Assembly: GCA_030066085.1 (NCBI GenBank)
Contig: JASJCI010000019.1
Location: 1-54,322 of the forward strand
Reading direction: 5' to 3'
DNA length: 54,322 nt
DNA from: Gammaproteobacteria bacterium
Lineage (GTDB): Bacteria; Pseudomonadota; Gammaproteobacteria; GCA-001735895
Shown: in pieces, positions 1 to 48,459 of the stretch
Layout of the letters: each line of letters starts with the position of its first letter
Position numbering within the stretch: the first letter of the stretch is position 1
Notes under the pieces: generated by a model
Told to the model about the DNA's origin: nothing
Seen by the model: only the letters and a program-made list of their open reading frames with translations
The model's database searches: none
Program-made: the position numbers and the translations under genes

Positions 1-39
1 GTCATGCGCGAATACGGTCTGTTCGCGAAGGAGCTCTGA
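1..39 (+). CDS. 3' end of an unidentified gene (partial)
   Basis: The window opens inside a gene. Its last twelve codons (VMREYGLFAKEL) and a TGA stop at 37-39 are visible. Nothing in this tail identifies the product. It ends four bases before the acyl-CoA synthetase start on the same strand, so it is probably the preceding gene of the same operon. Confidence 0.5.
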   Translation, partial: VMREYGLFAKEL

Positions 40-43
40 AGCC

Positions 44-1636
44 ATGAATCTCTTTTCCCTGTTCAAACGCCAGGTCGACCTGCGACCCGATGCCGCCGCG
101 CTGATCGATGTCGGCGATAACCGCAGCTGGACCTTTAGCGAGATCGAGCGCGCGTCGCGCGACATGGCCGCGCGCCTCGCCGACGCCGGCCTCGCGCGCG
201 GCGACGGCGTGCTGCTGTTCGTGCCGATGTCGGTGCGCCTCTACGTTACTTTGCTGGCCTGCTTCCGCCTCGGCCTGGTCGCGATCGTGATCGATCCCTA
301 CGCCGGACGCGCGCATGTCGAGCGCTGCTGCCGGCGTTACCCGCCGCGGGCCATGATCGGCACGCCGAAGGCCCAGCTGCTGCGCCTGCGGATCCCGGCG
401 TTACGTCGCATCGAGCTGCACTTCAGCGGCACACGGTGGCTGCCGGCGACGTGCTGGCTGCCGCTGGTCGCCGAAACCACGGCCGAAGATCTTGCGGTCG
501 AACTGGCGCCGTCCGAGCCGGCGCTGGTGACTTTCACCAGCGGTAGCACCGCGCTGCCCAAGGTGGCGGTACGCAGTCACGGGTTTTTGCATCGCCAGCA
601 CTGCGTGGTCGACCGCAACCAGCAGTTGGTTGCGGGTGCCCGCAGCCTGACGTTGTTTCCGGTATTCGTGTTGTCGAGCCTGGCTGCCGGCATCACCAGT
701 ATCCTGGCCGATGTCGACCTGCGGCAGCCGCAGCGCATCGACCCGCGCAAGTTGCTGGCGACGATCGAGCGCTACCGCCCGGACAGTCTCGGTCTGCAGC
801 CGATCGTGATCGCGCGGCTGGCGGACTATTGCCGGCGCGAGCATGAGAAACTGCACGGTAACTTCGTGCTTTACAGCGGCGGCGCGCCGGTGTTTCCGGC
901 GGTACTCGAACGTTTCGGCGCGATCGCCCCGGACGCGCGCATGATCAGCGTTTACGGTTCCACCGAGGCCGAACCGATTGCGCTGAGCGAGATCGTCGAC
1001 GCCAGTGAAACCCGGGTCAGTCCGGTAAAAGGATTACTCGCCGGCCGACCGGTTAGCGAAATCGAACTGCGCATCCTGCCGTTCGACGATGACCAGCCCT
1101 TCGAAATGTCGCGCGCGCAGTTCGAGGAACTTGAACTGGCGCCGGGAGAGATCGGTGAAATTGTCGTGCGCGGTAAGCACGTGCTCGAATCGTATCTCGA
1201 TGGCGAGGGTGATCGCGACAACAAGTACCGCGTCGATGGCCAGGCCTGGCATCGTACCGGTGATGCCGGCAGCCTCGATCGCGCCGGCCGCCTGTGGCTC
1301 GCCGGTCGCTGCATTGCCCGCATCGACGATCGCCGCGGAACCTGTTACCCCCTCGGCATCGAGGCCGCGGCAATGCAGCTGCCGGCGGTGCAGCGCGCCG
1401 CGCTGGTGGCCCATGGCGGTGAACGCCTGCTGGTCGTCGCCTGCCGGCCCGCGCAGCGTGTCGCGACCGGGGCAAGCCTGCGCGAGCTGCTCGACGAGGC
1501 CGGCATCGACCGTGTCGAGTTCGTCGGCGAAATCCCGGTCGATCGCCGCCACAACGGCAAGGTCGACTACCCCCGCCTGCAAAACCTGCTGGGTCGGCAA
1601 CCGGATGCCGGGCTGACCCTGGAGACTTCATCATGA
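44..1636 (+). CDS. AMP-forming acyl-CoA synthetase / acid ligase
   Basis: ANL-superfamily adenylating enzyme of 530 residues. It should activate a carboxylic acid as acyl-AMP and transfer it to CoA or a carrier thiol. The ATP-binding loop TSGSTALPK is at about residues 165-173, the A5-type motif YGSTEAEP at about 305, the hinge region HRTGDAG at about 405, and the expected catalytic lysine in NGKVDY near residue 507. No signal peptide or carrier domain is visible. The stop overlaps the start of the next gene (ATG at 1633), so the two are translationally coupled, which suggests that the ligase product is passed to, or made together with, the diiron oxygenase. The acid substrate cannot be told from sequence. 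A fatty acid or an aryl or amino-aryl acid are all possible. Confidence 0.85.
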   Translation: MNLFSLFKRQVDLRPDAAALIDVGDNRSWTFSEIERASRDMAARLADAGLARGDGVLLFVPMSVRLYVTLLACFRLGLVAIVIDPYAGRAHVERCCRRYPPRAMIGTPKAQLLRLRIPALRRIELHFSGTRWLPATCWLPLVAETTAEDLAVELAPSEPALVTFTSGSTALPKVAVRSHGFLHRQHCVVDRNQQLVAGARSLTLFPVFVLSSLAAGITSILADVDLRQPQRIDPRKLLATIERYRPDSLGLQPIVIARLADYCRREHEKLHGNFVLYSGGAPVFPAVLERFGAIAPDARMISVYGSTEAEPIALSEIVDASETRVSPVKGLLAGRPVSEIELRILPFDDDQPFEMSRAQFEELELAPGEIGEIVVRGKHVLESYLDGEGDRDNKYRVDGQAWHRTGDAGSLDRAGRLWLAGRCIARIDDRRGTCYPLGIEAAAMQLPAVQRAALVAHGGERLLVVACRPAQRVATGASLRELLDEAGIDRVEFVGEIPVDRRHNGKVDYPRLQNLLGRQPDAGLTLETSS

Positions 1637-2628
1637 ACATCGAACATACCCCGCGGCGTGACATACAGTCGCTCGAACGCCTGAATCAACTGGCGCACAA
1701 GAATGCCTGGGCCCTCGAAGACCTGGACTGGTCGCTGACGGTCGATCGCGAACGGCTGTGGGCACCGCCGGAAATGTCCCCGCTGAGTTACCTGCCGAGC
1801 TTCGAACGCCTCGACGGGGTTCAACAGCGGCGCTACAACCAGATCTTCGCGCTCGCGATCTGCGAGCAGTTCATCTGGTTCGAAACCAACTTCCTGGTCG
1901 ACGCGATGGAGTCGGTGGTGCGCGACTTCGACGTGCCGGAGGAACTGGTGACAGCGGTGAACTTCCTGACCGAGGAAGAGGTCAAGCACACGCGGATGTT
2001 CTGGCGCCTGCTGGAAAAATGTGAACCCGACTGGTATCCGACCCGCGACTATCACCTGTTTCGGATGACGCCGACCCAGCGCCTGCTGACGAAAAGCATG
2101 CTGCGCTGGCCGCGCGAGCTGCTGGTCTGGATCTGGATCGCGATCTTCTTCGAGGAGCGCACCGGCGATTATTGCCGCCAGTACCTGCGCTACGAGCGGC
2201 GTAACCCCGGCGCGATCGATCCGTCATTCCTGCAGGTGCACCGGTTTCATTTTCGCGACGAGGCGCGTCACTTCCAGCTCGACCAGCACCTGCTCGGCTG
2301 GATCTACGATCGCGCGCCGCGCTGGAAATGCCGCCTCGCCGGACGGATGTTTTACCGGGTCATGCGGGGCTACACTTCGCCGCGCAACACCGCGCGGCAA
2401 ACCCTGCGCCAGCTCGGCCGCGAATTTCCGCAACTCGAGCGCGACGTGATTCCGGCGCTCGAGCGCGAGCTCCCGTTGCTGGGGCAGTCGAAGGAATATC
2501 ACCGGATGGCTTTTTCGCGCAAGGCGGTCGGCAACAGCCTCGCGCTGTTCGCCGAGTACCCGGAACTCGACCGCCTGTGGCCGCTGTTCCAGGTCGAGAC
2601 CAGGTCTGACAACCTGCGCCGCGCATGA
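1633..2628 (+). CDS. AurF-like non-haem diiron oxygenase
   Basis: Ferritin-like four-helix protein of 331 residues with the ligand pattern of the AurF (p-aminobenzoate N-oxygenase) family. The candidate ligands are E84 (WFET), E116-x-x-H119 (EEVKH), E174/E175 (FFEE), and H206 with E210-x-x-H213 (HFRDEARH). The H-x3-E-x2-H spacing of the last group is the same as in AurF. Characterised members N-oxygenate arylamines or hydroxylate carrier- or CoA-bound substrates with O2. The four-base overlap with the upstream acyl-CoA synthetase argues for a two-step pathway, perhaps oxidation of an activated acid. There is no carrier protein or reductase beside it in this window, so electron donor and substrate are unknown. 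The family call is fairly firm and the reaction is inference. Confidence 0.75.
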   Translation: MNIEHTPRRDIQSLERLNQLAHKNAWALEDLDWSLTVDRERLWAPPEMSPLSYLPSFERLDGVQQRRYNQIFALAICEQFIWFETNFLVDAMESVVRDFDVPEELVTAVNFLTEEEVKHTRMFWRLLEKCEPDWYPTRDYHLFRMTPTQRLLTKSMLRWPRELLVWIWIAIFFEERTGDYCRQYLRYERRNPGAIDPSFLQVHRFHFRDEARHFQLDQHLLGWIYDRAPRWKCRLAGRMFYRVMRGYTSPRNTARQTLRQLGREFPQLERDVIPALERELPLLGQSKEYHRMAFSRKAVGNSLALFAEYPELDRLWPLFQVETRSDNLRRA

Positions 2629-2870
2629 GCCGCTTCCTGCTATTTCAGCACCGGGGGCGGACGCCTTGAGTTCGCGAACCAGCGACCACAATCGGCCGGT
2701 AACGGGTTCCGGGGTTAAAAGGAAACTCCTGACAAAACGGTTTTTTTACATCATTCTTTTCTTGGATAATCAATTCATGGCTAAAGGGTTATCGATTGCG
2801 GGGGTGGCAGCGACCCCTGTTAAACGGATGAAATTCAAACAATAATTCATGCAACAGGTGGGGTTTAAAC

Positions 2871-4178
2871 ATGTGCTTGAGAAAAGTAAGTAATACATTC
2901 ATCGTTTCCTGCGCAGCATTTGTCATGGTTGCGTGCGCGTCTTCTTCGAAAGAGATTGCAGCGACTTACGTTTCACCCGCGGAATATGCATCGTTCAGTT
3001 GCGACCAGCTATCGCAAGAGCTGGCCCGTCTGAATAAAAAGAAGAACGACCTGGCTTTTGAGCTCGATGAAAAAGCAAGCAGCGACGAGGGATTGACCGC
3101 TGTCAGCGTGATCCTGTTCTGGCCGGCCGCCTTTGCATTGGGCGGTAATGAGGAACAGGAAGCAGAGTACGCTCGCATCAAGGGGGAGTATGATGCCGTG
3201 CAAAAAGCCGGGGTTGAGAAAAGCTGTAATCTCGATCCGGCCAGGGTTCAAATCGCGAAGATCGAGAAGCAAACGGGTTCGGGTGATTCGAGCTCGGCGA
3301 TAGAGTTCTACGGTGAAGCCGAGGAGGAGATCAACACTGGCTCATACGATAAAGATCTATGGGCCAAGGCACTGGTCGACGTGGAAGGAGATGAAAACAG
3401 GCGCAGGGCGAAATACATCGAGTTACGCGCAAACCAGCTTTACTCTGAAAAAGTGGGTGCTGTATCTGGAACCGTTATTCCACAAGAACCTGCGGTTGCT
3501 GAAGGCAGGATGATTCTCGATCTTTCGGGCAACTATCGGTCGAAAATCACGGGATCTTATCGGGTCAAATCTGCATTCGTGATCGAACAGGATGGTAATC
3601 GGATCAAGGGCATGTCCCTGAACAAGGACTGGGAGTTCGAAGGATCTCTGGAAGAAGATACGCTGGTGTTGAAGTGGTGGAGCCCTGGTAACAAGGGTAA
3701 AGGTAAATTTACTGTCGATCCCTATGGCAACATGGCTGGCTCGTACGTGGGTGACAGCTGGGGCAAGGGCGAGTGGGCTTTGGTCAGGAATGACGAGCCG
3801 CCGGGCATGATGATTATCGCGCCCGACTCGAATTCGAACCCGCAATACATCGCGAATATTTCAGGTACCTACATATCGGAAATCACGAGTAATTCCAAAT
3901 GGCAATTCACGAAACGATACCAAAACCTGAAGATTAAATTTCAGCAAGAAGGAAATAAAATTGTCGGGATTGACGAGAGATACGATACCAAAATTGAGGC
4001 CACCATTGCGGGTGACTCAGTCAAGTTTTACGTGTTGGCAGGCCAGGCGGCAGGTGGCTATGATGCCGAGGGCGAATGGAAAATCAGCGCCGATGGCACC
4101 CGGCTCGTGGGTAGCTGGAATTCGCCAGGTAGCGCCGACGCGGCTTCTGGTGAATGGATTCTCAGAAAGGTCCAGTGA
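2871..4178 (+). CDS. Predicted lipoprotein with two beta-rich repeats
   Basis: Protein of 435 residues that I do not recognise. It begins with a lipoprotein-type signal: a basic start, a hydrophobic stretch and a lipobox-like MVAC with the acceptor cysteine at 22, followed by ASSSKE. Residues about 40-180 are charged and helical, with one short hydrophobic segment (VSVILFWPAAFALGG). The C-terminal half holds two related modules starting at DLSGNYRSKITG (about 217) and NISGTYISEITS (about 329). Each has a GNRIKG/GNKIVG turn and ends in a GEW motif, which suggests tandem small beta-barrels. The gene and its 240-bp upstream region are clearly less GC-rich than their neighbours, and it stands alone, so it may have been acquired. 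The function is unknown. Confidence 0.7.
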   Translation: MCLRKVSNTFIVSCAAFVMVACASSSKEIAATYVSPAEYASFSCDQLSQELARLNKKKNDLAFELDEKASSDEGLTAVSVILFWPAAFALGGNEEQEAEYARIKGEYDAVQKAGVEKSCNLDPARVQIAKIEKQTGSGDSSSAIEFYGEAEEEINTGSYDKDLWAKALVDVEGDENRRRAKYIELRANQLYSEKVGAVSGTVIPQEPAVAEGRMILDLSGNYRSKITGSYRVKSAFVIEQDGNRIKGMSLNKDWEFEGSLEEDTLVLKWWSPGNKGKGKFTVDPYGNMAGSYVGDSWGKGEWALVRNDEPPGMMIIAPDSNSNPQYIANISGTYISEITSNSKWQFTKRYQNLKIKFQQEGNKIVGIDERYDTKIEATIAGDSVKFYVLAGQAAGGYDAEGEWKISADGTRLVGSWNSPGSADAASGEWILRKVQ

Positions 4179-4402
4179 TCGCCAGGGATGGAATACGGAA
4201 ACTGACCAGGGTTTTTCCGGCATCAGCATCGGCGTGATATCAGGGCCAGTCGCGTCATCCCCGTGGTCGACGTTGGGCAAGATCCAGGCGGGATCGATCT
4301 TCGAAAGGTCCAGCTGCCGAAGAGTAATGACCGGCTGCCTTTGCCGCGTTCGGACGGGTGTCTTTAAACTTAGCGGGGTTTACCCAACAACTCGAACCGG
4401 TA
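4179..4402. other. Gene-free stretch with possible minus-strand gene remnant
   Basis: No convincing gene is present between the lipoprotein stop and the ileS promoter. On the minus strand, a frame that is open from about 4378 down into the end of the lipoprotein gene reads naturally for some 50 residues (for example IDPAWILPNVDHGDDATGPD). It has no start or ribosome-binding site and could be the decayed end of a lost gene. This is a weak call based only on amino-acid texture. Confidence 0.2.
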
Positions 4403-4431
4403 TTGAAATTGTCGCTAAAAAACGGGAAAAT
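4403..4431 (+). promoter_or_regulatory. Candidate sigma-70 promoter of the T-box/ileS unit
   Basis: TTGAAA at 4403-4408 and GAAAAT at 4426-4431 are separated by 17 bp. Transcription would begin near 4438, just before the first T-box stem. The -35 match is good and the -10 match moderate. The position relative to the riboswitch is the main support. Confidence 0.5.
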
Positions 4432-4443
4432 CGCGCAAATTCA

Positions 4444-4742
4444 AGGCTATGAAAGGGACGAGTAGTCGGAGCACTTCGTCAGCACGAGCGATCAGGGGAT
4501 GGTGTGAGCCCTGAGCGGAGCCGAGCGAAAATCACCCTCGAGCCGCCAACCGAAAGGTGTCACCACCGAGTAGGCCTGGACGGATGATCCCCGATACCGG
4601 ATCGAAGTGATACCTGCTGTTGGACGAGGCGTCACTTCTCGAGTCCCCATCCGTGAGGATGTGGAGAAACCGGGTGGTACCGCGAAAGAAATCTCGCCCC
4701 GGATACGGTTGCAGATGCAACGGTATCCGGGGTTTTTTTTTT
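4444..4742 (+). promoter_or_regulatory. T-box riboswitch (tRNA-Ile sensing) of ileS
   Basis: A complete transcription-attenuating T-box leader. It reads an uncharged tRNA and lets RNA polymerase through only when the aminoacyl end is free. Visible parts in order are: the GA motif GGGACGAGTAG (4455-4465); a stem I apical loop with GGATGGTGTGAG (4497-4508); the specifier loop AAAATCACC (4528-4536) with an ATC isoleucine codon at 4531-4533; a stem II/pseudoknot-like segment GAGTAGGCCTGGACGG (4568-4583); stem III (CCCCATCC / GGATGTGG around a GTGA loop, 4645-4664); and the T-box core GGGTGGTACCGCG at 4672-4684. The acceptor-binding TGGT pairs with ACCA, meaning discriminator A73 plus CCA, as expected for tRNA-Ile. 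The antiterminator (CCGGG 4670-4674 with CCCGG 4698-4702) excludes the terminator that follows. Specifier, acceptor site and downstream gene all agree on isoleucine. Confidence 0.95.
4697..4742 (+). terminator. Intrinsic terminator of the T-box leader
   Basis: A strong hairpin has arms CCCCGGATAC (4697-4706) and GTATCCGGGG (4723-4732), an inner GTTGC/GCAAC stem and an AGAT loop, followed by ten T residues at 4733-4742. Its 5' arm overlaps the strand needed for the antiterminator, so the two folds are mutually exclusive. It ends 12 bases before the ileS start codon. Confidence 0.93.
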
Positions 4743-4754
4743 GGAGCTGCACAA

Positions 4755-7700
4755 ATGGTGCTTGAGACTGTAGACGGCCGCTACGACGGCCCCAAACTCG
4801 AACAGGACATCCTCGATTTCTGGCGCGAACACGACGTGTTCAACCAGACCCTTCACATGAGCGAGGGACGCCCGTTGTTCACGTTCAACGAGGGGCCGCC
4901 CACCGCCAACGGCAAGCCGGGGATCCACCACGTCCTGGCGCGCACGTTCAAGGATATTTATCCGCGCTACAAGACCATGCAGGGATTCCATGTGCCCCGC
5001 AAGGCGGGCTGGGATACCCACGGTTTGCCGGTGGAACACGAGGTCGAAAAGAAACTCGGTATCTTCGACAAGAAGGAAATCGAGGAAAAGGTGGGCATCG
5101 CCGAATTCACGCGCATGTGCCGTGAATCGGTCATGAACTATATCGGCGAATGGGAGCAAATGACCGAGCGCATGGGCTTCTGGGTCAACCTGGAAGAAGC
5201 CTATTACACGCTGGATAACAAGTTCATCGAATCGGTGTGGAACCTGCTGCAGCAGATCTGGGACAAGGGACTGATGTACCAGGGTTACAAGGTCGTACCC
5301 TACGATCCCCGCATCGGCGCGACCCTTTCTTCCCACGAAGTCGCCCAGGGTTACAAGGAGGTGGACGACCCGTCGGTCACGGTCCGGTTCAAGGTTACCG
5401 GCGAAGAAAACACCTCGTTCCTGGTATGGACCACCACCCCCTGGACCTTGCCGTCCAACCTGGCACTGGCGGTCGGGGAAGACATCGATTACGTCTACGT
5501 CGAATCGGAAGGGGAGACCTTTATCCTCGCGGCTGCCCTGCAGGAAGCGGTTCTCGGAGATCGGCCACAGAAAGTCGTCAAGACCGTGAAAGGCTCGGAA
5601 CTGGTCGGCATGCGCTATGAACGCCTGTTCGATTACCTGGAAGCCGAGGGCGATATCTGCCGGGTGTTGCCGGCGGACTTTGTCAGCACCGAGGATGGCA
5701 CCGGCATCGTGCACACGGCGCCGGCCTACGGTGTCGACGATCTCGAACTCGGGCAAAAGTTCGGTTTACCGGTGGTTCACGGTGTCGGCCTCGACGGCTA
5801 TTTCAAGCCGGAAGTCACCCCGGTGGCCGGCCTGTTCTTCAAGCAAGCCGACCACGTTCTGATCGAGCTGTTGCAGGAACGCGGCCTGCTGTTCAAGGCG
5901 CAAACCATCAGCCACAACTATCCCTTCGGCTGGCGTACCGGTGACCCGTTGATCTACTACGCCAAGAATGCCTGGTATATCCGCACCACCGACATCGCCG
6001 ATCGCATGGTGGCGCTGAACAAGACCATTAACTGGGTGCCAAAGACCATTCGCGATGGTCGCTTCGGCAACTGGCTGGAAAATAATATCGACTGGGCCCT
6101 GTCACGCGAGCGTTTCTGGGGAACGCCGTTGCCGCTATGGACGGATGGTGAGGGTAACTACGAATGCATCGGCTCGCTGCAGGAACTGGAAGAGCGCACG
6201 GGCAGAAGCTTGAGCGAACTGGATCTGCATCGCCCGGCGGTCGACGAGGTCACTTACGAAAAAGACGGCAAGACCTGGCGGCGGGTGCAGGAAGTCATCG
6301 ACTGCTGGTTCGATTCCGGCGCCATGTCCTATGCGCAGTGGCATTACCCGTTCGAAAACGAGGACGTATTCGAAAAGCACTTTCCGGTAGACTACATCTG
6401 CGAAGCCATCGATCAGACCCGCGGCTGGTTTTACACCCTGCATGCGATCGCCTCGCTGGTGTCTGACAGCGTGGCCTATCGCAACTGTGTCTGCCTGAGC
6501 CACATCGTCGACCAGTACGGCAAGAAAATGTCCAAGTCGCAGGGCAATATCGTCAACCCCTACGATGTATTCGACACCGTGGGTGCCGACGCATTGCGCT
6601 GGTTTTTTCTCGCTCGACTGGCGCCGGAAGTGCAAAAGCGTATTTCCGTCGACATCGTCGCCGACGTGGCCGCGTCCTTCGTCAATACGCTGTGGAACAC
6701 CTACGGCTTTTACGTCATGTATGCCAGGCTGGACGAGATCGATATTAACGACCAGGTGCCCGTCTCCGAGCGGCCGGAAATCGACCGCTGGGCGATCGCG
6801 TTACTCAACGACACCATCGACCGGGCTACCAGGGCGCTGGATGACTATGATGCCCGGGCCGCGGGCAGTGCCATCGAGGCCTTCGTCGACCAACTTTCCA
6901 ACTGGTACGTGCGGCGTAACCGTCGCCGGTTCTGGAAAGCGGAGGCCGGTGCGGACAAGCAGGCGGCGTACCTGACGCTTTACGAATGCCTGGTGGGCGT
7001 AACCCGCCTGATCGCGCCCTTCATGCCCTTCCTGAGCGAGGCGATGTATCAGAACCTGGTGAAGCGCCTGGATGACAGCGCGCCGATGTCGGTGCACATG
7101 GACCACTGGCCGAAGGCCGATACCAGCCTTATCGACCAGGAGTTGATTCACGGCATCGACGTCGTCCAGCGCGTGGTTGGACTGGGCCGCGCGGCGCGTG
7201 AAGCCAGCAAGGTTCGCGTGCGCCAGCCGTTATCACGCCTGCTGGTGCGCACGCCGGACCAGGTCACCCAGGCGGCGGTCGAGGACCACGCGGCGCAGAT
7301 TACCGAGGAACTCAATATCAAGGAGGTCGAGTTTCTGCCCGCGGATGCCGAATTGCTCGCTTATCGAGTCAAGCCGAAGTTGCCCGAGCTGGGCAAGCGT
7401 TACGGCAAACTGGTGCCGGCGATTCGAAATGCGCTGGCCGATTGCGATGGCATGGCCCTGGTCAAGGCACACGCTGCCGGTGAGTCGTTCGATCTCGAGG
7501 TCGAAGGACAGGTGCTTTCGTTTGCGGCAGACGACGTGTTGGTGGAATCAGAGTCCGCCGAGGGTTATGCCTGTGCCGAGGAAGACGGTTACCTGGTCGG
7601 ACTCGACACCCAGCTCAGCGAAGACCTGCTGGTCGAAGGATTGGCCCGCGAGCTGGTGCGCACGGTGCAGGATGCCCGCAAACACGGCGGCCTGGAGATT

Positions 7701-7892
7701 TCGGACCGGATCACGCTGCGTATCGAGGGCAGTGACCGGGTCGATCGCGCGCTCGAACAGTATCGTGACTACCTGATGAGCGAAACCCTGGCGACGCAAT
7801 GGGGCGACAGCGGATTTAGCGGGACCTGCAGTGCCGATCACACGCTGGGTGACGACCGCTGGTCCATTCAATTGAGTGTCACGCAAGACTAG
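4755..7892 (+). CDS. ileS: Isoleucyl-tRNA synthetase, type 2 (eukaryote-like)
   Basis: Class I synthetase of 1045 residues that charges tRNA-Ile, longer than the roughly 940-residue type 1 enzyme usual in gammaproteobacteria. The HIGH-region segment GPPTANGKPGIHHVLAR is at residues 47-63 and KMSKS at 591-595. The editing domain lies between them (TTTPWTLPSNLALAVG) and a long anticodon-binding C-terminus follows. GPPTANGKPGIHH and the overall length point to the type 2 / IleRS2 lineage, which includes eukaryotic cytosolic enzymes and, as known for that lineage, tends to be insensitive to mupirocin. The start at 4755 is chosen because GGAG at 4743-4746 is well placed and the terminator tract lies just upstream. 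The longer TTG frame from 4620 runs through the riboswitch. Expression should depend on the T-box. Confidence 0.95.
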   Translation: MVLETVDGRYDGPKLEQDILDFWREHDVFNQTLHMSEGRPLFTFNEGPPTANGKPGIHHVLARTFKDIYPRYKTMQGFHVPRKAGWDTHGLPVEHEVEKKLGIFDKKEIEEKVGIAEFTRMCRESVMNYIGEWEQMTERMGFWVNLEEAYYTLDNKFIESVWNLLQQIWDKGLMYQGYKVVPYDPRIGATLSSHEVAQGYKEVDDPSVTVRFKVTGEENTSFLVWTTTPWTLPSNLALAVGEDIDYVYVESEGETFILAAALQEAVLGDRPQKVVKTVKGSELVGMRYERLFDYLEAEGDICRVLPADFVSTEDGTGIVHTAPAYGVDDLELGQKFGLPVVHGVGLDGYFKPEVTPVAGLFFKQADHVLIELLQERGLLFKAQTISHNYPFGWRTGDPLIYYAKNAWYIRTTDIADRMVALNKTINWVPKTIRDGRFGNWLENNIDWALSRERFWGTPLPLWTDGEGNYECIGSLQELEERTGRSLSELDLHRPAVDEVTYEKDGKTWRRVQEVIDCWFDSGAMSYAQWHYPFENEDVFEKHFPVDYICEAIDQTRGWFYTLHAIASLVSDSVAYRNCVCLSHIVDQYGKKMSKSQGNIVNPYDVFDTVGADALRWFFLARLAPEVQKRISVDIVADVAASFVNTLWNTYGFYVMYARLDEIDINDQVPVSERPEIDRWAIALLNDTIDRATRALDDYDARAAGSAIEAFVDQLSNWYVRRNRRRFWKAEAGADKQAAYLTLYECLVGVTRLIAPFMPFLSEAMYQNLVKRLDDSAPMSVHMDHWPKADTSLIDQELIHGIDVVQRVVGLGRAAREASKVRVRQPLSRLLVRTPDQVTQAAVEDHAAQITEELNIKEVEFLPADAELLAYRVKPKLPELGKRYGKLVPAIRNALADCDGMALVKAHAAGESFDLEVEGQVLSFAADDVLVESESAEGYACAEEDGYLVGLDTQLSEDLLVEGLARELVRTVQDARKHGGLEISDRITLRIEGSDRVDRALEQYRDYLMSETLATQWGDSGFSGTCSADHTLGDDRWSIQLSVTQD

Positions 7893-7906
7893 CCCGCAGA
7901 CAAAAA

Positions 7907-7955
7907 TTATGGTGACAGTTAACTAAATTCCGAAATAGGTTAACTGTCACCATAA
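7907..7955. repeat. Perfect 17-bp inverted repeat after ileS
   Basis: Arms TTATGGTGACAGTTAAC (7907-7923) and its exact reverse complement (7939-7955) enclose a 15-nt AT-rich loop. It starts 15 bases after the ileS stop. There is no T tract, so it is a doubtful terminator. It looks more like a mobile or REP-type palindrome. The rest of 7956-8244 shows no gene apart from the GC-rich palindrome at 8051-8113. Confidence 0.8.
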
Positions 7956-8050
7956 CTTCCAAGTAATCAGGGAACAAGACAGCCGGCGGTTGTCGACCTA
8001 ACTTAGCCTCTCGCCTGGAAAATGAAGCGTAATGCCGCTTCGACGGACCG

Positions 8051-8113
8051 CCGCGCAAGCGGGAATCTTGCACTTCGCCCGAATCATGAGATCCCCGCTT
8101 GCGCGGGGATGAC
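8051..8113. repeat. Composite palindromic repeat, copy A (left end truncated)
   Basis: A degenerate left hairpin (CCGC-gcaa-GCGG, 8051-8062) is followed by a right hairpin ATCCCCGC-ttgc-GCGGGGAT (8091-8110) that ends in ATGAC. It belongs to the same family as the copies at 20752, 22187 and 30523 but lacks the left GTCAT terminus. Confidence 0.7.
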
Positions 8114-8244
8114 GCCGCAAAACGTTTCCTAATGGACGAGGGCCGCTGCTCACGGTTGCAAAACCAGTGTCCGTTCCGGGCACGAGAGAGCTATTGCTCG
8201 AATCGCGGCTGACCTGCGCGGGTTAGCCAACTGCCAGGCGGGAT

Positions 8245-8661
8245 TTACTTCGAAGGCTTGCCGAAGCGCCCGGTCACCAGTTCGACGATGCGGGTGAAAT
8301 CCGCGTTGCTGGCCCAGCCGAGGCTGATGATCTTTTCGCGCACCTGGCCGTCTTCCATCAGGGTCAGCTTGAGCGCGCGCATGACTCGCTCCGCGTTGCG
8401 GATGTTCTCCGCCGGGTAGAATTCACCGCAGTAGAGGCCTTTTTCGTCGAGCCCGAGGCGGGGCGCGCCGAGGCGCTGCTTGGCGTAGCGCATGCCGATC
8501 AGGCCGGTGATGAAGAAGGTGACGTAATGCGGCAGGGTTGGTGGCCAGGGCCACAGGCCGACCAGGTACAGCAGTACCGGCGCCAGCGCGATGTTGACCG
8601 CCATGTGGATGACGCGCGGCTTGCTCGAGAAAAAAACGTGTTCGGTTTCGGCTTCGCTCAT
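8245..8661 (-). CDS. Small inner-membrane protein of unknown function
   Basis: Protein of 138 residues with two hydrophobic segments near the N-terminus (VNIALAPVLLYLVGLW and the stretch around HYVTFFITGLIGM) and a soluble C-terminal half. I do not recognise the family. The start at 8661 (MSEAETEH) is preferred because an AGGAT-like site precedes it and it leaves a 16-bp gap after aceK. A start at 8694 would overlap aceK. It is the last gene of the minus-strand FAH-aceK group, so it may be co-expressed with them, but nothing connects it to isocitrate metabolism. Confidence 0.65.
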   Translation of the reverse strand: MSEAETEHVFFSSKPRVIHMAVNIALAPVLLYLVGLWPWPPTLPHYVTFFITGLIGMRYAKQRLGAPRLGLDEKGLYCGEFYPAENIRNAERVMRALKLTLMEDGQVREKIISLGWASNADFTRIVELVTGRFGKPSK

Positions 8662-8677
8662 GGCCTGCGATCCTGGT

Positions 8678-10465
8678 TCAGGTGCCCCCGGCAAACAGTT
8701 TGCAGCTGTCCGGGTAAACCTTGATTGCCGGCACCAGGTTCTGGCCGAGCTCGTTCTGCAGGTTGTCCCAGTACTGCATGGTCAGCAGGTCGCCGTGATA
8801 TTCGCGAAACAGCCGACGATGATCTCGGTTCCGGATACACAGCCCGGCCTCGATCTCCTCCGGCAGGAACACCACCCCTTCCTCGAAATACCAGTCCGGG
8901 ATGTCTTCCTCGCCGTCGATGCGATCGAGGTTACTGCGAATCTTGACGTCGAGGAAGTCTTCGAGTGCGTCGTAGTCATAGAGATAGACCTTCAAAAAGT
9001 GGCTGACGCCGTAATTGCGCGCATCGAGATCCTTGTTGAAGATGTTGGCGGCGGCATTGTTCTTGATGCAGTCGCCCAGGTTTTCGAGCACGTAGCGGAC
9101 CTGCCAGTCCTGCGCGGTTTCGAGGAACACCGGCAGCGGCGTCATGCGCGGCTGTACGATCAGGTACTTGAAAACGACGTTGTCCTCCTGCAGCGAGACG
9201 GTTTCGCTCGCCTGGGACAGCAGCTCTTCCAGCAGTTCGGGAGAAAACAGTTCCCGCTCCAGCGCGATGTTGAAGTAGATGATGTTGTCGAGCATGCTGC
9301 CGGTGCGGTTGATTTCGTGTACCCGGCTGTACTTTTGCTTGACCGCATCGATGCCTTCGAACTGGCCCCACTTGTAACCCGAGGTCGGGTGGTTGCGGAT
9401 AACCTTCAGGTTGTAGGCCGAGCCCGGGCCGGCAAAGCCGATCGCGACCGTGCCCGGTTCGCCGATCGCGGTGTCCAGCACGCCGTTGCTGGCAGCCAGC
9501 TCGCGCTTGAGCTCGCTGATCACCGCGACCTTGCCGACGTGGTTGTAGCCAATCGTCGAATAGTGCAGGCCGAGCGCGCGATTCGGCATCAGCGAATGCA
9601 GCCAGGCGCTGAGTTCGTGGTAGAAGCGGGTGGTGACGTGGAAATTGGCGAGGGTCGAGCTGAACAGGTTGTGCGCAAGGTGCTCGTCGAGGATGACGGC
9701 GTCACAGTAGACGCCGTCCTCGCCGTTGAGCAGGGCGATGATCAGCGGCGCGAAGCTCTCGTCGTCGAACAGGATCTTGCCGACCAGGTAGGCGCCGCGA
9801 TTGCGATAAAAGCCGGCGTCGATCATTTCCAGCGTCTCGATCCGCGCCTTGCGCCGGTGAGCCAGCCGGTTGATGCGCCAGGATATCGCCTCGGCGTCGC
9901 GCGCGGCGCTGCGCCAGGGGACCGACAACCCGGGAATCTGCAGGATTTCCTCGATCAGCCCGGTGGTGACCAGCTTTTCCACCGGGTAACGTCGCAGCAG
10001 CTCCGGCGGGTAATCGTGTTCGGCGTCTTCCTGGCTCATGAAACTGTATTCGACCGGTTTCCACTCGTCGCGGTAAACCATGCGCCGAATCGAATGCATG
10101 AATGCGTAGGCGACGTCGGCCTCGTAGCGATCCCGGACCATCTGCCAGAAACTGGCTTCGAGCCGGTTCAGAAAATCCACGTCCACCGAGATGTCGGGTT
10201 GTACGGCCTTGAGGTAGGCCCCCATGCGCGGAATGCGCGAACTGTATAACGACAGCCGGTAACGACTGAGCCAGATCGACGTGCTGTGGTGTTGCGCCTC
10301 GAAGGCCTGGCGCGCGAGGTAGGGCACTTCGAGGAACTCGCGGTAGAACTCCTCGAACTGCGACAGGACCCAGTCGGCCGTGAACTCGATGCGGTCGTCG
10401 CGGCGGGTGGCGCCGATCATGCGAAAGCTGAATGCCTGCTGGGCTTCCGTCGGGGCCGTGGTCAT
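8678..10465 (-). CDS. aceK: Isocitrate dehydrogenase kinase/phosphatase
   Basis: Bifunctional enzyme of 595 residues (E. coli AceK has 578). It phosphorylates and dephosphorylates isocitrate dehydrogenase and so diverts isocitrate into the glyoxylate bypass during growth on acetate, fatty acids or other C2 sources. The ATP-binding loop region AIGFAGPGSAYNLKVIRN, with the lysine in KVIRN, sits in the middle of the protein. The C-terminal kinase signature reads NIFNKDLDARNYGV followed by YLYDYDAL, matching the NIF-GD-KNFGV and VFYDYDE blocks of AceK. It follows the FAH gene by 18 bp. The glyoxylate-bypass genes aceA and aceB are not in this window, which is unlike the enterobacterial aceBAK operon. 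Confidence 0.9.
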   Translation of the reverse strand: MTTAPTEAQQAFSFRMIGATRRDDRIEFTADWVLSQFEEFYREFLEVPYLARQAFEAQHHSTSIWLSRYRLSLYSSRIPRMGAYLKAVQPDISVDVDFLNRLEASFWQMVRDRYEADVAYAFMHSIRRMVYRDEWKPVEYSFMSQEDAEHDYPPELLRRYPVEKLVTTGLIEEILQIPGLSVPWRSAARDAEAISWRINRLAHRRKARIETLEMIDAGFYRNRGAYLVGKILFDDESFAPLIIALLNGEDGVYCDAVILDEHLAHNLFSSTLANFHVTTRFYHELSAWLHSLMPNRALGLHYSTIGYNHVGKVAVISELKRELAASNGVLDTAIGEPGTVAIGFAGPGSAYNLKVIRNHPTSGYKWGQFEGIDAVKQKYSRVHEINRTGSMLDNIIYFNIALERELFSPELLEELLSQASETVSLQEDNVVFKYLIVQPRMTPLPVFLETAQDWQVRYVLENLGDCIKNNAAANIFNKDLDARNYGVSHFLKVYLYDYDALEDFLDVKIRSNLDRIDGEEDIPDWYFEEGVVFLPEEIEAGLCIRNRDHRRLFREYHGDLLTMQYWDNLQNELGQNLVPAIKVYPDSCKLFAGGT

Positions 10466-10483
10466 CGGGCTGGTCCGGGGGCG

Positions 10484-11263
10484 TCAGTCCGGGAAGTCGT
10501 CGAACCGGTTTTCGAGCGTGCCGATGCCCGGGATCGAGATATGGATTTCGCTGCCGGGTTTCATCGTGCGTGCCCCTACAGACGTACCGCAGCAGATCAG
10601 GTCGCCGGGTACCAGCGTCTGGTAAGTGGAGATCATCGCGACGATTTCCCGCGGACCGTAGATCATGTCGCTGACCGGGTAGTCCTGGCGGGTCTCGTCG
10701 TTCTGGATTGCGAGTATGCGCAGATCGTCCGGCGCGATATCGCTGTTGATGCACGGGCCGAGCGGGGTGAAGGTGTCGAAGCCCTTGCTGCGCGTCCACT
10801 GCTGGAACGCCTTGTCCTCGAACAGGAACTCGATCGCGGTGACATCGTTGACGCAGGTGTAGCCGAAGATGTAGTCATCGGCGTCGCTGGCGTCGATGTC
10901 GCGGCATTCGCGGCCGATGACGATGCCGAGTTCGGCCTCGAATATCACCCGCCCCGCGTGACCGCGCGGTCGATAAATGGTCTCCCCCGGACCGATTACG
11001 CTGGTCACCGGTTTCATGAAATACAGCGGGGTCACCGGGATCGTCTGCCCCTCGGCCTCGGCGCGCTCGTGGAAATTGTTCCACAGGGCGAGAATGGAAT
11101 TAGGCGTGAACGGCGCGAGCAGGGTCACGTCGCCGGCGTCGAGGGTTTCGCCGGTTTTGACCGCCGGCTCAAACAGCCGGTTGCTGCAGACCTCGATGCG
11201 GCCGCCATCCAGGAGCCCGAGATGTGTCGTGTCGCCGTGGCGGAATTTTACCCAGTTGCTCAT
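10484..11263 (-). CDS. Fumarylacetoacetate hydrolase (FAH) family protein
   Basis: Protein of 259 residues in the FAH/acylpyruvate hydrolase fold. The family cleaves C-C bonds or tautomerises 2-oxo acids such as acylpyruvates, fumarylpyruvate or oxaloacetate using Mg2+. The acidic metal-binding cluster is recognisable in IFEAELGIVIGR and CVNDVTA, and the C-terminal LVPGDLICCGTSVG and MKPGSEIHISIPGIG blocks are typical. The start at 11263 (MSNWVKF) is chosen over 11326 because the 21 residues before it look non-coding. It is the first gene of the minus-strand unit with aceK and is divergent from the reductase at 11483. The substrate is not predictable. Confidence 0.82.
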   Translation of the reverse strand: MSNWVKFRHGDTTHLGLLDGGRIEVCSNRLFEPAVKTGETLDAGDVTLLAPFTPNSILALWNNFHERAEAEGQTIPVTPLYFMKPVTSVIGPGETIYRPRGHAGRVIFEAELGIVIGRECRDIDASDADDYIFGYTCVNDVTAIEFLFEDKAFQQWTRSKGFDTFTPLGPCINSDIAPDDLRILAIQNDETRQDYPVSDMIYGPREIVAMISTYQTLVPGDLICCGTSVGARTMKPGSEIHISIPGIGTLENRFDDFPD

Positions 11264-11482
11264 TTTGCGTTCGTTGCCTGGCCAGAGTTGGAGGGCGCGA
11301 AATCTAGCATATCGCCACGCAAACACAAAACCGCCGCCGACCGGCGAAGGCGGCGCGAATAAATTCCACGGATACCCGGATTGGAAAATTTATATCGATT
11401 ATTAGGCTGGTCGCATGGACGCAACCGGTATCTTTGCGTAGAATTCGCCGTCCTTTTAAACCCCTGATTCTGTGAGGAAAAC

Positions 11483-12487
11483 ATGAAAGTTTGCGTGGTG
11501 GGAGCGGGCGCAATCGGCGGCATGATGGCGGTCAGGCTGGCGCAGTCGGGACACGAAGTTTCGGTTATTGCGCGCGGTGCGCACCTCGATGCGATCCAGA
11601 CCAACGGCCTCAAGTACATCGAAAACGGTGAAGAAACCGTGGCGCGGAACCTCACGGCGACCGCCGACATGAGCGAAGTAACCGGCCAGGACATGGTGCT
11701 GCTCGGCGTCAAGGCACACCAGATCGAGCCGATCGCCGACCAGCTGATGCCGATGCTGTCGGACACCGGCGTCATCGTCACCCTGCAGAACGGCATTCCG
11801 TGGTGGTACTTCCAGAAGCTCGAGGGCGATTACCGCGACAACATCGTGCGCACGGTCGATCCCGACGGCGCGATCGCGGCCGCGATCGATCCCGATCGCA
11901 TCATCGGCTGTATCGCCTTCCCGGCCGCGACCATCGACGAGCCCGGGGTGATTCGCCACATCGAGGGTAATCGTTTTCCGCTGGGCGAACTCGACGGCGC
12001 CGAATCCGAGCGCGTACTGGCGATTCGCGATGCCTTCGTCGAGGCCGGCTTCAAGTCGTTCGTGCTGCCGGACATTCGCTCCGAAATCTGGCTCAAGCTG
12101 TGGGGCAACCTGTCGTTCAACCCGATCAGCGCGCTGACCCACGCGACCCTGGTTGATATCTGCCAGTTCCCGCAGACGCGGGCCCTGGCCGCGCAAATGA
12201 TGACCGAGGCGCAGCAGATCGCCGAAAAACTGGGCGCGAGCTTTCGCGTCTCGCTCGAGCGCCGCATCGAGGGCGCCGAGGGTGTCGGCAAGCACAAGAC
12301 GTCGATGCTGCAGGACCTCGAGGTCGGCAAGGCGCTGGAAATCGACGGCATGCTGGGCGTCGTCATCGAGCTCGGCGAGCAGACCGATACGCCGACACCG
12401 GCGATCAATACCGTGTTCGCGCTGGTCAGCCTGCTGAACAAGACCGCGCAGGAAGAGGGTCTGCGCATCGCCGGCCAGCCGATCTAG
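11483..12487 (+). CDS. Ketopantoate reductase (ApbA/PanE) family dehydrogenase
   Basis: NAD(P)H-dependent 2-oxoacid reductase of 334 residues. The Rossmann loop GAGAIGG is at about residues 7-13, the family lysine sits in LGVKAHQ at about 77, and the C-terminal helical domain carries KLWGNLSFNPISALT and the GKHKTSMLQDLEVGKALEIDG block. Bona fide PanE makes pantoate for CoA synthesis, but many paralogues reduce other 2-oxo acids. Because a strong terminator follows and the next block is a carboxylate/CoA pathway, this could be either the pantothenate enzyme or a 2-hydroxyacid dehydrogenase, and I would not assign panE. A GAGG site sits 7-8 bases before the ATG. Confidence 0.85.
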   Translation: MKVCVVGAGAIGGMMAVRLAQSGHEVSVIARGAHLDAIQTNGLKYIENGEETVARNLTATADMSEVTGQDMVLLGVKAHQIEPIADQLMPMLSDTGVIVTLQNGIPWWYFQKLEGDYRDNIVRTVDPDGAIAAAIDPDRIIGCIAFPAATIDEPGVIRHIEGNRFPLGELDGAESERVLAIRDAFVEAGFKSFVLPDIRSEIWLKLWGNLSFNPISALTHATLVDICQFPQTRALAAQMMTEAQQIAEKLGASFRVSLERRIEGAEGVGKHKTSMLQDLEVGKALEIDGMLGVVIELGEQTDTPTPAINTVFALVSLLNKTAQEEGLRIAGQPI

Positions 12488-12536
12488 GTTGGTATCGATC
12501 GTGGTTGCGCCAACCCCCCAAGTTGGGTGAAACTAC

Positions 12537-12562
12537 AAACGCGCTCTCGGGCGCGTTTTTTT
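12537..12562 (+). terminator. Rho-independent terminator after the reductase gene
   Basis: AAACGCGC (12537-12544) and GCGCGTTT (12551-12558) form an 8-bp stem with a six-base loop, running into seven T residues that end at 12562. It separates the reductase from the sucCD unit. Confidence 0.85.
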
Positions 12563-12577
12563 ACAATGAAAAAAATT

Positions 12578-12594
12578 TGGTATACGGTATACCA
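12578..12594. promoter_or_regulatory. 17-bp palindromic operator upstream of sucC
   Basis: TGGTATAC-G-GTATACCA is a perfect palindrome. A candidate -35 (TTTACA, 12560-12565) lies upstream, and the palindrome covers the place where a -10 would fall (TATACG at 12581, spacer 15). Binding would therefore block the promoter. The almost identical site at 14868 precedes tctC. GntR/FCD regulators commonly bind short GTATAC-type palindromes, and one is encoded at 18216, so it is the natural candidate. That assignment is inference. Confidence 0.7.
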
Positions 12595-12626
12595 GAAATG
12601 GCCGGTCCCGGCCTTGGGGAGCGAAA

Positions 12627-13790
12627 ATGAAGATTCACGAGTATCAGGGCAAGGATATTCTGCGCGAATACGGCGTTGCCGTACCGCGCGGTAAAGCCTG
12701 TTTTTCGGTTGACGAAGCGGTCGCCGCGGCCGAGGAAATCGGCGGCAGCAAGTGGGTGGTCAAGGCGCAGATTCATGCCGGTGGTCGCGGCAAGGGTGGC
12801 GGCGTCAAGCTCGCCGACAGCATCGACGAGGTGCGCGAGCTCGCCGACCAGATCCTCGGCATGACGCTGGTCACGCACCAGACCGGGCCGGAGGGCAAGG
12901 AGGTCAAGCGCCTGCTGATCGAGGAAGGCGCCCCGATCCAGGACGAGCTGTACCTGGGCCTGGTCGTCGACCGCGCCGCGCAGCGGGTCGTGGTTATGGC
13001 CAGCTCCGAGGGCGGCACCGAGATCGAAACGGTTGCCGAGGAAACCCCCGAACTGATTCACAAGGTGCAGGTCGATCCGCAAGTCGGCCTGACGACGGTG
13101 GAGGCCGAGGACCTGGCGGGCAAGATCGGCATTCCCGCGGCTCTCGTTGCCGACGGCGGCAAACTGATGCAGGCGCTCTACCAGGCATTCTGGGACAAGG
13201 ATTGTTCGCTCGCCGAGATCAACCCGCTGATCGTGACCTCGGACAGCCGCGTGGTCGCGCTGGACGCGAAGATGAATTTCGACGAGAGCGCGATGTACCG
13301 CCATCCCGAGCTGCAGGAACTGCGCGACCTCGACGAGGAAGACGCGGACGAGATCGCGGCCTCGGAATTCGGCCTCAACTACATCTCGCTGGACGGCACC
13401 ATCGGCTGCCTGGTCAACGGCGCCGGGCTCGCGATGGCGACCATGGACATCATCAAGCTCTACGGCGCGTCACCGGCCAACTTTCTCGACGTCGGCGGCG
13501 GCGCGACCACCGAGCAGGTGACCGAGGCGTTCAAGATCATGCTCAAGAACGACAACCTGAAGGCCATCCTGGTCAATATCTTCGGCGGCATCATGCGCTG
13601 CGACGTGATCGCCGAAGGGCTGGTCAACGCGGCGCGCGAGGTCGATCTGAAGGTTCCGCTGGTGGTTCGCCTCGAGGGAACCAACGTCGAGCAGGGGCGC
13701 CAGATTCTGGCCGATTCGGGCATAGACATCATCAGCGCGACGACCATGGCCGACGCGGCCGAAAAAGTCGCGGCAGCAGCGGGGGCTTAA
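12627..13790 (+). CDS. sucC: Succinate-CoA ligase-like beta subunit
   Basis: ATP-grasp subunit of 387 residues (E. coli SucC has 388) of an ADP-forming acid-CoA ligase. The N-terminal ATP-grasp domain shows [20 protein letters not shown] at about residues 43-62, EINPLIVT follows in the middle, and the C-terminal ligase domain carries [24 protein letters not shown] and [10 protein letters not shown]. Overall it is closer to SucC than to the malate-CoA ligase MtkA, but it differs in places such as the insert [15 protein letters not shown]. It lies away from sucAB, carries its own operator, and leads into sucD two bases later. It is therefore probably a dedicated paralogue for the acid handled by this block rather than the housekeeping enzyme. 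GGGGAG precedes the ATG. Confidence 0.9.
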
Positions 13791-13792
13791 CC

Positions 13793-14671
13793 ATGACGAT
13801 ACTGATCAACAGGGATTCGCGCGTCGTCACCCAGGGAATTACCGGCAAGACCGGCCAGTTTCATACCCATCATTCGATTGCCTATGCCAGCGGCAAGGAC
13901 TGCTACGTCGCCGGCGTTACGCCGAAAAAGGGCGGCCAGGAAGTCGAGGGTGTACCGGTGTTCGATACCGTGGCGGAGGCCAAATCCGCGACCGGCTGCA
14001 ACGTGTCGGTCATTTACGTGCCGCCGCCGTTCGCCGCCGCGGCGATCGACGAGGCCGTCGACGCGGAAATGGAGGTCGTCATCTGCATTACCGAGGGTAT
14101 CCCGGTCAAGGACATGATCCGCACGCGCGATCGCATGCGCGGCTCGAACACGGTCCTGGTCGGGCCCAACTGCCCCGGGGTCATCACCCCCGAGGAACTC
14201 AAGATCGGCATCATGCCGGGCTACATACACCAAAAGGGACATATCGGAGTGGTTTCGCGTTCGGGTACACTGACCTACGAGGTCGTCGACCAGCTGAGCA
14301 AGCTGGGTCTCGGTCAGTCGACCTGCGTTGGCATCGGCGGCGATCCGGTCAACGGTCTCAAGCACGTCGACGTGATGAAAATGTTCAATGACGATCCCGA
14401 TACGCACGGGGTGGTCATGTGCGGCGAAATCGGCGGCACCGACGAAGAAGAGTGCGCCGCGTGGATCGCCGACAACATGACCAAGCCGGTGGTCGGCTTC
14501 ATCGCCGGCGTGACCGCACCGCCGGGCAAGCGCATGGGGCATGCCGGCGCGATCATCGCCGGCGGCAAGGGCACCGCGGACGAAAAGATTCGCGCCCTCG
14601 AGGCGGCCGGGGTCAGCGTCACGCGCAACCCCTCGGACATGGGCAAGCTGATGGCCGAGGCCCTGGGCTAG
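13793..14671 (+). CDS. sucD: Succinate-CoA ligase-like alpha subunit
   Basis: CoA-binding subunit of 292 residues (E. coli SucD has 289) that partners the preceding beta subunit. The N-terminal CoA domain starts [19 protein letters not shown]. The phosphorylated histidine lies in [12 protein letters not shown] near residue 245, and [11 protein letters not shown] and SRSGTLTYE are typical. An open frame continues upstream through sucC in another frame. The true start is the ATG at 13793, two bases after the sucC stop, which implies coupled translation of an equimolar complex. Confidence 0.92.

Positions 14672-46755: not shown

Positions 46756-48459
<1,704 letters not shown>

Follow-up and report, generated by a model that had tools for sequence, protein, structure and literature searches.

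The window analysed here is the whole of a 54,322-nucleotide stretch of DNA from Gammaproteobacteria bacterium (assembly GCA_030066085.1, contig JASJCI010000019.1, positions 1-54,322 of the forward strand). It carries a T-box leader and, directly downstream, a gene predicted to encode a type-2 isoleucyl-tRNA synthetase (IleRS2). The features at the locus are as follows, with strand and evidence in brackets (the last two are unstranded).

4403-4431 (+): candidate weak sigma-70-like promoter, TTGAAA-17-GAAAAT (one site against 0.3 expected in shuffles)
4440-4704 (+): T-box leader RNA, full RF00230 match (covariance model)
4454-4538 (+): stem I with apical GGUGNGA loop motif (model match, alignment, covariation)
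4531-4533 (+): specifier codon ATC (Ile), then purine A4534, inside stem I (sequence reading, model match)
4543-4601 (+): stem II with GAAA...AGTA motif and the next short helix, stem IIA/B region (model match, consensus, helices 6-8)
4644-4665 (+): stem III (model match)
4670-4702 (+): antiterminator with T-box bulge TGGTACC at 4675-4681 (sequence reading, model match, consensus)
4697-4742 (+): intrinsic terminator, hairpin 4697-4732 and ten T at 4733-4742 (sequence reading, fold)
4743-4746 (+): ribosome-binding site GGAG (sequence reading)
4755-7892 (+): ileS2, predicted type-2 (eukaryote-like, MupA-like) isoleucyl-tRNA synthetase, 1045 aa (profile and structure-sequence matches)
4920-4931 (+): non-canonical class I motif GIHH, residues 56-59 (sequence reading; PMC10485003)
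7904-8117: dispersed intergenic repeats, an inverted repeat at 7904-7958 and an element at 8022-8117 (own genome and genus comparison)
8263-8309: junction between a native right side, syntenic with congeners, and a left side with T-box-ileS2 that has no DNA-level counterpart in the genus (genus DNA comparison)

The T-box leader and its synthetase gene

A first-pass annotation of this DNA had claimed a complete tRNA-Ile T-box, with an ATC specifier at 4531-4533, an antiterminator opposed by a mutually exclusive ten-T terminator and a TGGT site matching the ACCA end of tRNA-Ile, and had proposed an Infernal search with RF00230. This search returned a match at 4440-4704 on the plus strand, covering the full model (1-219 of 219) with 82.3 bits and a genome-wide E of 4.5e-18. 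It was the only T-box in the 4.39-Mb genome, and lies a short way before ileS, the start codon of which is the ATG at 4755. The score is below the Rfam gathering score for RF00230 (93 bits), and a default Rfam scan of the window accordingly lists no T-box; absence at that threshold therefore proves little. Weak Rfam overlaps with NsiR1, anti-hemB and ClpQY_promoter at the terminator were taken as chance matches to a GC hairpin followed by a U-run, and rejected.

All elements named in the annotation were found, at most 1-2 bases from where it had placed them, and the specifier lies exactly at 4531-4533, within stem I and followed by A4534. Two antiterminator helices were read from the sequence (4670-4674/4698-4702 and 4682-4685/4694-4697). 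The terminator stem is formed by 4697-4706/4723-4732, and the terminator piece folds at -32 kcal/mol. Since this hairpin reuses antiterminator bases 4697-4702, the two structures are mutually exclusive (class I), as had been proposed. The TGGT of the bulge (4675-4678) is complementary to a tRNA 3' ACCA. A congener encodes tRNA-Ile(GAT) with the matching anticodon, A73 and an encoded CCA end (...ACCA), in agreement with the pairing claimed for tRNA-Ile. A tRNA-Ile search of the host's own draft assembly found only a CAT-anticodon tRNA and no tRNA-Ile(GAT), presumably because the rRNA operon is unassembled.

Conservation of the leader was assessed on an alignment (A1) of 12 diverged leaders from other genomes, each in the equivalent position ahead of ileS2 (at L015, with a short gene in between). 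The RNAalifold consensus recovered stem I, stem II, the next helix and the antiterminator. Compensatory changes affecting both sides were present in 30 of 46 pairs, against 16.5 expected from shuffles, none of which (0/500) reached 30; 93.7% of cells were paired, a value that dropped to 51% after a one-column slide. This provides strong evidence of selection on structure. The ATC specifier was kept in all 12 leaders, and both the T-box bulge and the 5-bp antiterminator helix were invariant.

From this anatomy we infer that the window T-box binds tRNA and controls termination. The anticodon of uncharged tRNA-Ile(GAU) would pair with the specifier AUC of stem I, and the ACCA end of the same tRNA with the UGGU bulge; this would stabilise the antiterminator (4670-4702) and block the terminator (4697-4742), allowing RNA polymerase to read into ileS2. 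The end of charged tRNA-Ile could not pair, and transcription would stop. The sub-threshold Rfam score and the finding of only a weak promoter-like site would also suit a vestigial leader, which came with ileS2 and no longer regulates, either through constitutive read-through or through failure to recognise host tRNA-Ile. We consider this unlikely, however, as all functional elements are intact (specifier, bulge and ten T after the -32 kcal/mol hairpin), leaders only 55-66% identical to that of the window still keep pairing, and the tRNA-Ile(GAT) of the congener has the matching anticodon and ACCA end.

The product of the downstream gene scored 937 bits with TIGR00392 (ileS) and 854 bits with the MupA model. 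Its best PDB relatives were the 1032-aa isoleucine--tRNA ligases 8c8u, 8c8v, 8c8w and 8c9d (~890 bits), which we take to be the Priestia megaterium IleRS2 structures of PMC10485003. The best 921-aa PDB chain, read as IleRS1, scored 383 bits, and congener IleRS1 was only ~32% identical to the window enzyme. Judged by these matches, the gene is predicted to encode a type-2 IleRS, closer to IleRS2 and eukaryote-like enzymes than to IleRS1. The GIHH motif is also found in all gammaproteobacterial relatives of the clade that have that region present. The G/AXHH motif of IleRS2 has been linked by mutagenesis to mupirocin hyper-resistance (PMC10485003), and the window IleRS2 may be mupirocin-tolerant.

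Replacement of the native ileS1

The host assembly is a draft in 85 contigs (4.39 Mb, 96.55% completeness, 1.8% estimated contamination). The view that the window is gammaproteobacterial held up: the host's rpoB is 93-94% identical to those of congeners and nests within the genus, its product is most similar to gammaproteobacterial RpoB, with chains including E. coli RpoB as closest solved relatives, and window 8295-14000 (5.7 kb) is syntenic with most congeners at 74-85% nucleotide identity. This synteny establishes the contig as native. Left of ~8263, including T-box-ileS2, no DNA-level counterpart was found in the genus, save dispersed repeats and short conserved coding stretches. The repeats at 7904-7958 (an imperfect palindrome) and 8022-8117 are of two types, both scattered over genome and genus.

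The genome contains a single ileS, namely ileS2; weaker matches fell in frames of valS/leuS-like size. The window enzyme was absent from the other 40 species genomes sampled from the order, where best matches were about 30-44% identical and mostly ~945-aa IleRS1. A distant IleRS2-like fragment (42-44% identity, motif HYGN) accompanies IleRS1 in one congener (L087, G007:C179) and is either a second copy or a contaminant.

In congener G030 the gene order is murJ-ribF-ileS1-lspA, with ileS1 intact. On the host's own contig C61, in contrast, all that lies between ribF and lspA is a remnant of ileS1, in which 59 bp from the start of the gene abut its final ~115 bp, so that ~2.65 kb is missing relative to congeners. 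Native ileS1 is thus reduced to a deletion scar between ribF and lspA, showing that T-box and ileS2 replaced the native gene. Furthermore, the equivalents of window position 8263 and of position 145 of C61 lie only 90 bp apart in G030, and the foreign segment was therefore inserted between genes ~5 kb from native ileS1. Both the scar and the insertion are read from the assembly of an 85-contig draft; absence of ileS1 could partly reflect the 96.55% completeness, against which the scar speaks. Since the cell needs one working IleRS throughout, we infer that insertion came first and deletion of ileS1 second. Replacement of an essential gene is thus caught with its steps visible, as insertion beside the old locus, deletion and a scar left behind.

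Distribution and origin of the T-box-ileS2 pair

Relatives were sought by an IleRS2 scan over 84,980 species genomes. This identified a gammaproteobacterial set 65-77% identical to the window enzyme, followed by Chloroflexota near 50%; the nearest relatives outside Gammaproteobacteria were Anaerolineae with T-box-ileS2 (about 50% identity). Exactly one T-box each, before ileS2, was found in ten gammaproteobacterial genomes from the scan. Three Gammaproteobacteria-labelled genomes, SAT1331, jk18x7bins.8 and an Oceanococcus MAG (L009, L013 and L044), have IleRS2 with no detectable T-box; the pair can therefore come apart.

A class-wide draw under strict filters detected a T-box in 2 of 369 genomes, the second being G242. 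Within the order of G242, which is a different one from that of the host, 40 of 196 sampled genomes had one T-box each, 39 of them in a single family; this number counts T-box-bearing genomes (at least 39) and is not a fraction of the family. As in the window, most of these matches (31/40) fell below the 93-bit gathering score. At all 20 sampled loci of the family ileS2 lay directly downstream of the T-box, with 69-78% identity to that of the window. We take this family to be Woeseiaceae on the basis of submitters' titles, since one of its T-box-bearing records is so titled. In one member, G494, the assembly consists of a single contig (4,059,891 bp), which removes binning as a general explanation of the pair. 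A genome of another family of the same order (G502) also has one T-box, again before ileS2. We conclude that the T-box-ileS2 pair is stably maintained in one gammaproteobacterial family. The first-pass statement that T-boxes are not a normal feature of Gammaproteobacteria has to be corrected for the at least 39 genomes of this family and for scattered other lineages. Routine ileS T-boxes were found only at the level of this family, a different one of the class, and not in the host's own order, where 40 of the 41 species sampled are without the pair.

Several of the related loci depart from the layout of the window. The leader of L007 (4906-5001; UBA7447) has no U-run terminator; its core and start codon are instead separated by a long hairpin, which may be an altered or a translational expression platform. 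At L015 (4268-5001; Arenicellales IP29b) a glutathione S-transferase-like ORF (MYKLILGNKNYSSWSLRPW...) comes next after the T-box and ileS2 starts ~730 bp later, so that T-box control may extend to a second gene. In L022, L174 and L185, long near-perfect palindromes that look like inserted mobile repeats enlarge the terminator stem immediately behind the T-box core, with the base of the stem left in place.

In trees obtained by quick searches, the gammaproteobacterial IleRS2 formed one clade (15 sequences, 99% SH-aLRT) among Chloroflexota groups, many of which bear T-boxes before ileS. The window IleRS2 was sister to that of Bin_32 (99% SH-aLRT; 91 in a shorter alignment), with 77% identity. 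The rpoB of the two hosts are only 67% identical and belong to separate lineages. This discordance, together with absence of the enzyme from the rest of the order, supports a recent transfer within the Gammaproteobacteria, presumably into this host. Its immediate source was probably another member of the class and not a Gram-positive. Identity between leaders was uninformative as a donor marker (64% for Bin_32 against 55-66% for others). A deeper step from Chloroflexota is plausible. The earlier notion of a transferred riboswitch was thus right as to horizontal transfer, and has to be amended in that the riboswitch did not travel alone, since the synthetase came too and host ileS1 was lost, and in that it is no isolated oddity.

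The reading that we hold with considerable confidence is that a class I tRNA-Ile T-box controls ileS2, and that the pair was acquired, likely from a gammaproteobacterium, after which native ileS1 was deleted. Horizontal transfer, with another gammaproteobacterium as the most likely source, would have brought in T-box and ileS2 at once, as a pair ultimately related to the T-box-ileS2 of Chloroflexota. Insertion ~5 kb from native ileS1 would have been followed by deletion of ileS1, leaving ileS2 as the sole isoleucyl-tRNA synthetase gene.

The single, well-supported clade of gammaproteobacterial ileS2 (99% SH-aLRT) and the presence of the pair in several lineages might alternatively reflect a common ancestor of these Gammaproteobacteria that had T-box-ileS2, with loss from most lineages including this order. 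Such an ancestral origin is quite improbable, however, given that 40 of the 41 species sampled from the order are without the pair and most have IleRS1, that ribF-ileS1-lspA is intact in G030 and mostly deleted in the host genome, that 77% identity in ileS2 stands against only 67% in rpoB for the same two genomes, and that a T-box was detected in only 2 of the 369 genomes drawn from the whole class.

The draft state of the assembly (85 contigs, 1.8% estimated contamination) and the lack of a DNA-level counterpart of window 1-8294 in the genus would be expected if a T-box-ileS2 contig from another organism had been misplaced in the genome by binning or assembly. The chance of this is very slight: the contig continues with 5.7 kb for which many congeners show synteny (74-85% identity), genus-typical repeats stand right after ileS2, the genome has in place of ileS1 only a scar, located on a different contig between ribF and lspA, and the pair recurs in many genomes, one of them a single contig of 4.06 Mb. 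Contamination was accordingly rejected on the rpoB placement, the synteny of the contig and the ileS1 scar. Direct transfer from Chloroflexota or Gram-positives into the genus, independent of other Gammaproteobacteria, is just as improbable. The Anaerolineae with T-box-ileS2, as the nearest relatives outside Gammaproteobacteria (about 50% identity), would speak for it, but it was rejected on the IleRS2 tree, where all 15 gammaproteobacterial sequences group together (99%); these are 65-77% identical to that of the window.

Relation to known T-boxes and a possible role in tolerance

In the literature, T-boxes belong to Bacillota, Actinomycetota, Chloroflexota and a few other groups, and have been regarded as almost confined to Gram-positives. 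Surveys list Firmicutes, Actinobacteria, Chloroflexi, Deinococcus-Thermus and Geobacter/Pelobacter as hosts (PMC2494555, PMC3766115), with T-boxes in 2 of 125 proteobacterial genomes, of deltaproteobacterial type, in 2008 (PMC2494555). The main text on TBDB (23,535 sequences) makes no mention of proteobacteria (PMC7778990). Naville and Gautheret (2010; PMC2965389, Figure 5c) reported a T-box-like hisS attenuator in isolated Gammaproteobacteria, and transfer into this class had therefore been suspected before. We found no literature linking Woeseia to riboswitches.

The window leader resembles the class I tRNA-Ile ileS T-boxes of Bacillota and Chloroflexota in its stem I with AUC, stems II/III, UGGN bulge and antiterminator/terminator switch before ileS. 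It differs from them in its gammaproteobacterial host, G+C-rich stems and sub-cut-off Rfam score, and in being the only T-box of its genome. The deltaproteobacterial-type T-box likewise occurs in what were then Proteobacteria, but at a leucine gene of biosynthesis, whereas that of the window precedes a synthetase gene (PMC2494555). The hisS attenuator likewise points to a possible transfer of a T-box into Gammaproteobacteria, and it too precedes a gene for an aminoacyl-tRNA synthetase; in the part of that paper available, however, it was called an unknown attenuator resembling T-boxes, one possible transfer, and was presented without covariance-model evidence or a survey (PMC2965389).

As for the enzyme, the window IleRS2 is of type 2 with GIHH, as in the mupirocin hyper-resistant group (PMC10485003, PMC4861432). 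Housekeeping use of IleRS2 as sole enzyme is known (Nat Commun 2023, PMC10485003; J Biol Chem 2016, PMC4861432). Proteobacteria generally have IleRS1, with transfer noted for some alphaproteobacteria; the present case differs from those described in being gammaproteobacterial and in coming with a T-box (PMC10485003, PMC4861432). The T-box element thus belongs to a known family, in a lineage that is little documented. What is new, as far as checked, is the regular occurrence of T-box-ileS2 in a gammaproteobacterial family together with a visible replacement of ileS1. The presence of the pair across one family, and its fresh arrival in a genus whose other sampled species are without it, indicate that Gammaproteobacteria have kept a class I T-box, which probably functions alongside their own RNA polymerase and tRNA.

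Tolerance of mupirocin-like inhibitors, as suggested by the GIHH motif, would be a testable reason for the replacement. We tentatively suggest, as a possibility for which the odds are rather against than for, that T-box-ileS2 in Gammaproteobacteria is a self-contained, drug-responsive tolerance unit which spreads between lineages, senses the uncharged tRNA-Ile that accumulates under mupirocin-like inhibition of IleRS, and displaced the sensitive ileS1. If true, it would constitute a transferable, riboswitch-controlled replacement of an essential gene outside the usual T-box phyla.

Two further observations concern other parts of the window. Its first 384 bp are 95% identical to the last 384 bp of contig C51 of the same genome, both being contig ends. 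MMPL-, BtaA- and acyltransferase-like genes are found on C51, and the first genes of the window are those of an acyl-CoA ligase and an AurF-like oxygenase; in view of this gene content, a biosynthetic cluster may adjoin T-box-ileS2. Finally, an Rfam match to 5_ureB_sRNA (46905-47191, minus strand, 112 bits) lies antisense to the urease alpha gene (46756-48459) and probably reflects conserved coding sequence, not an RNA.
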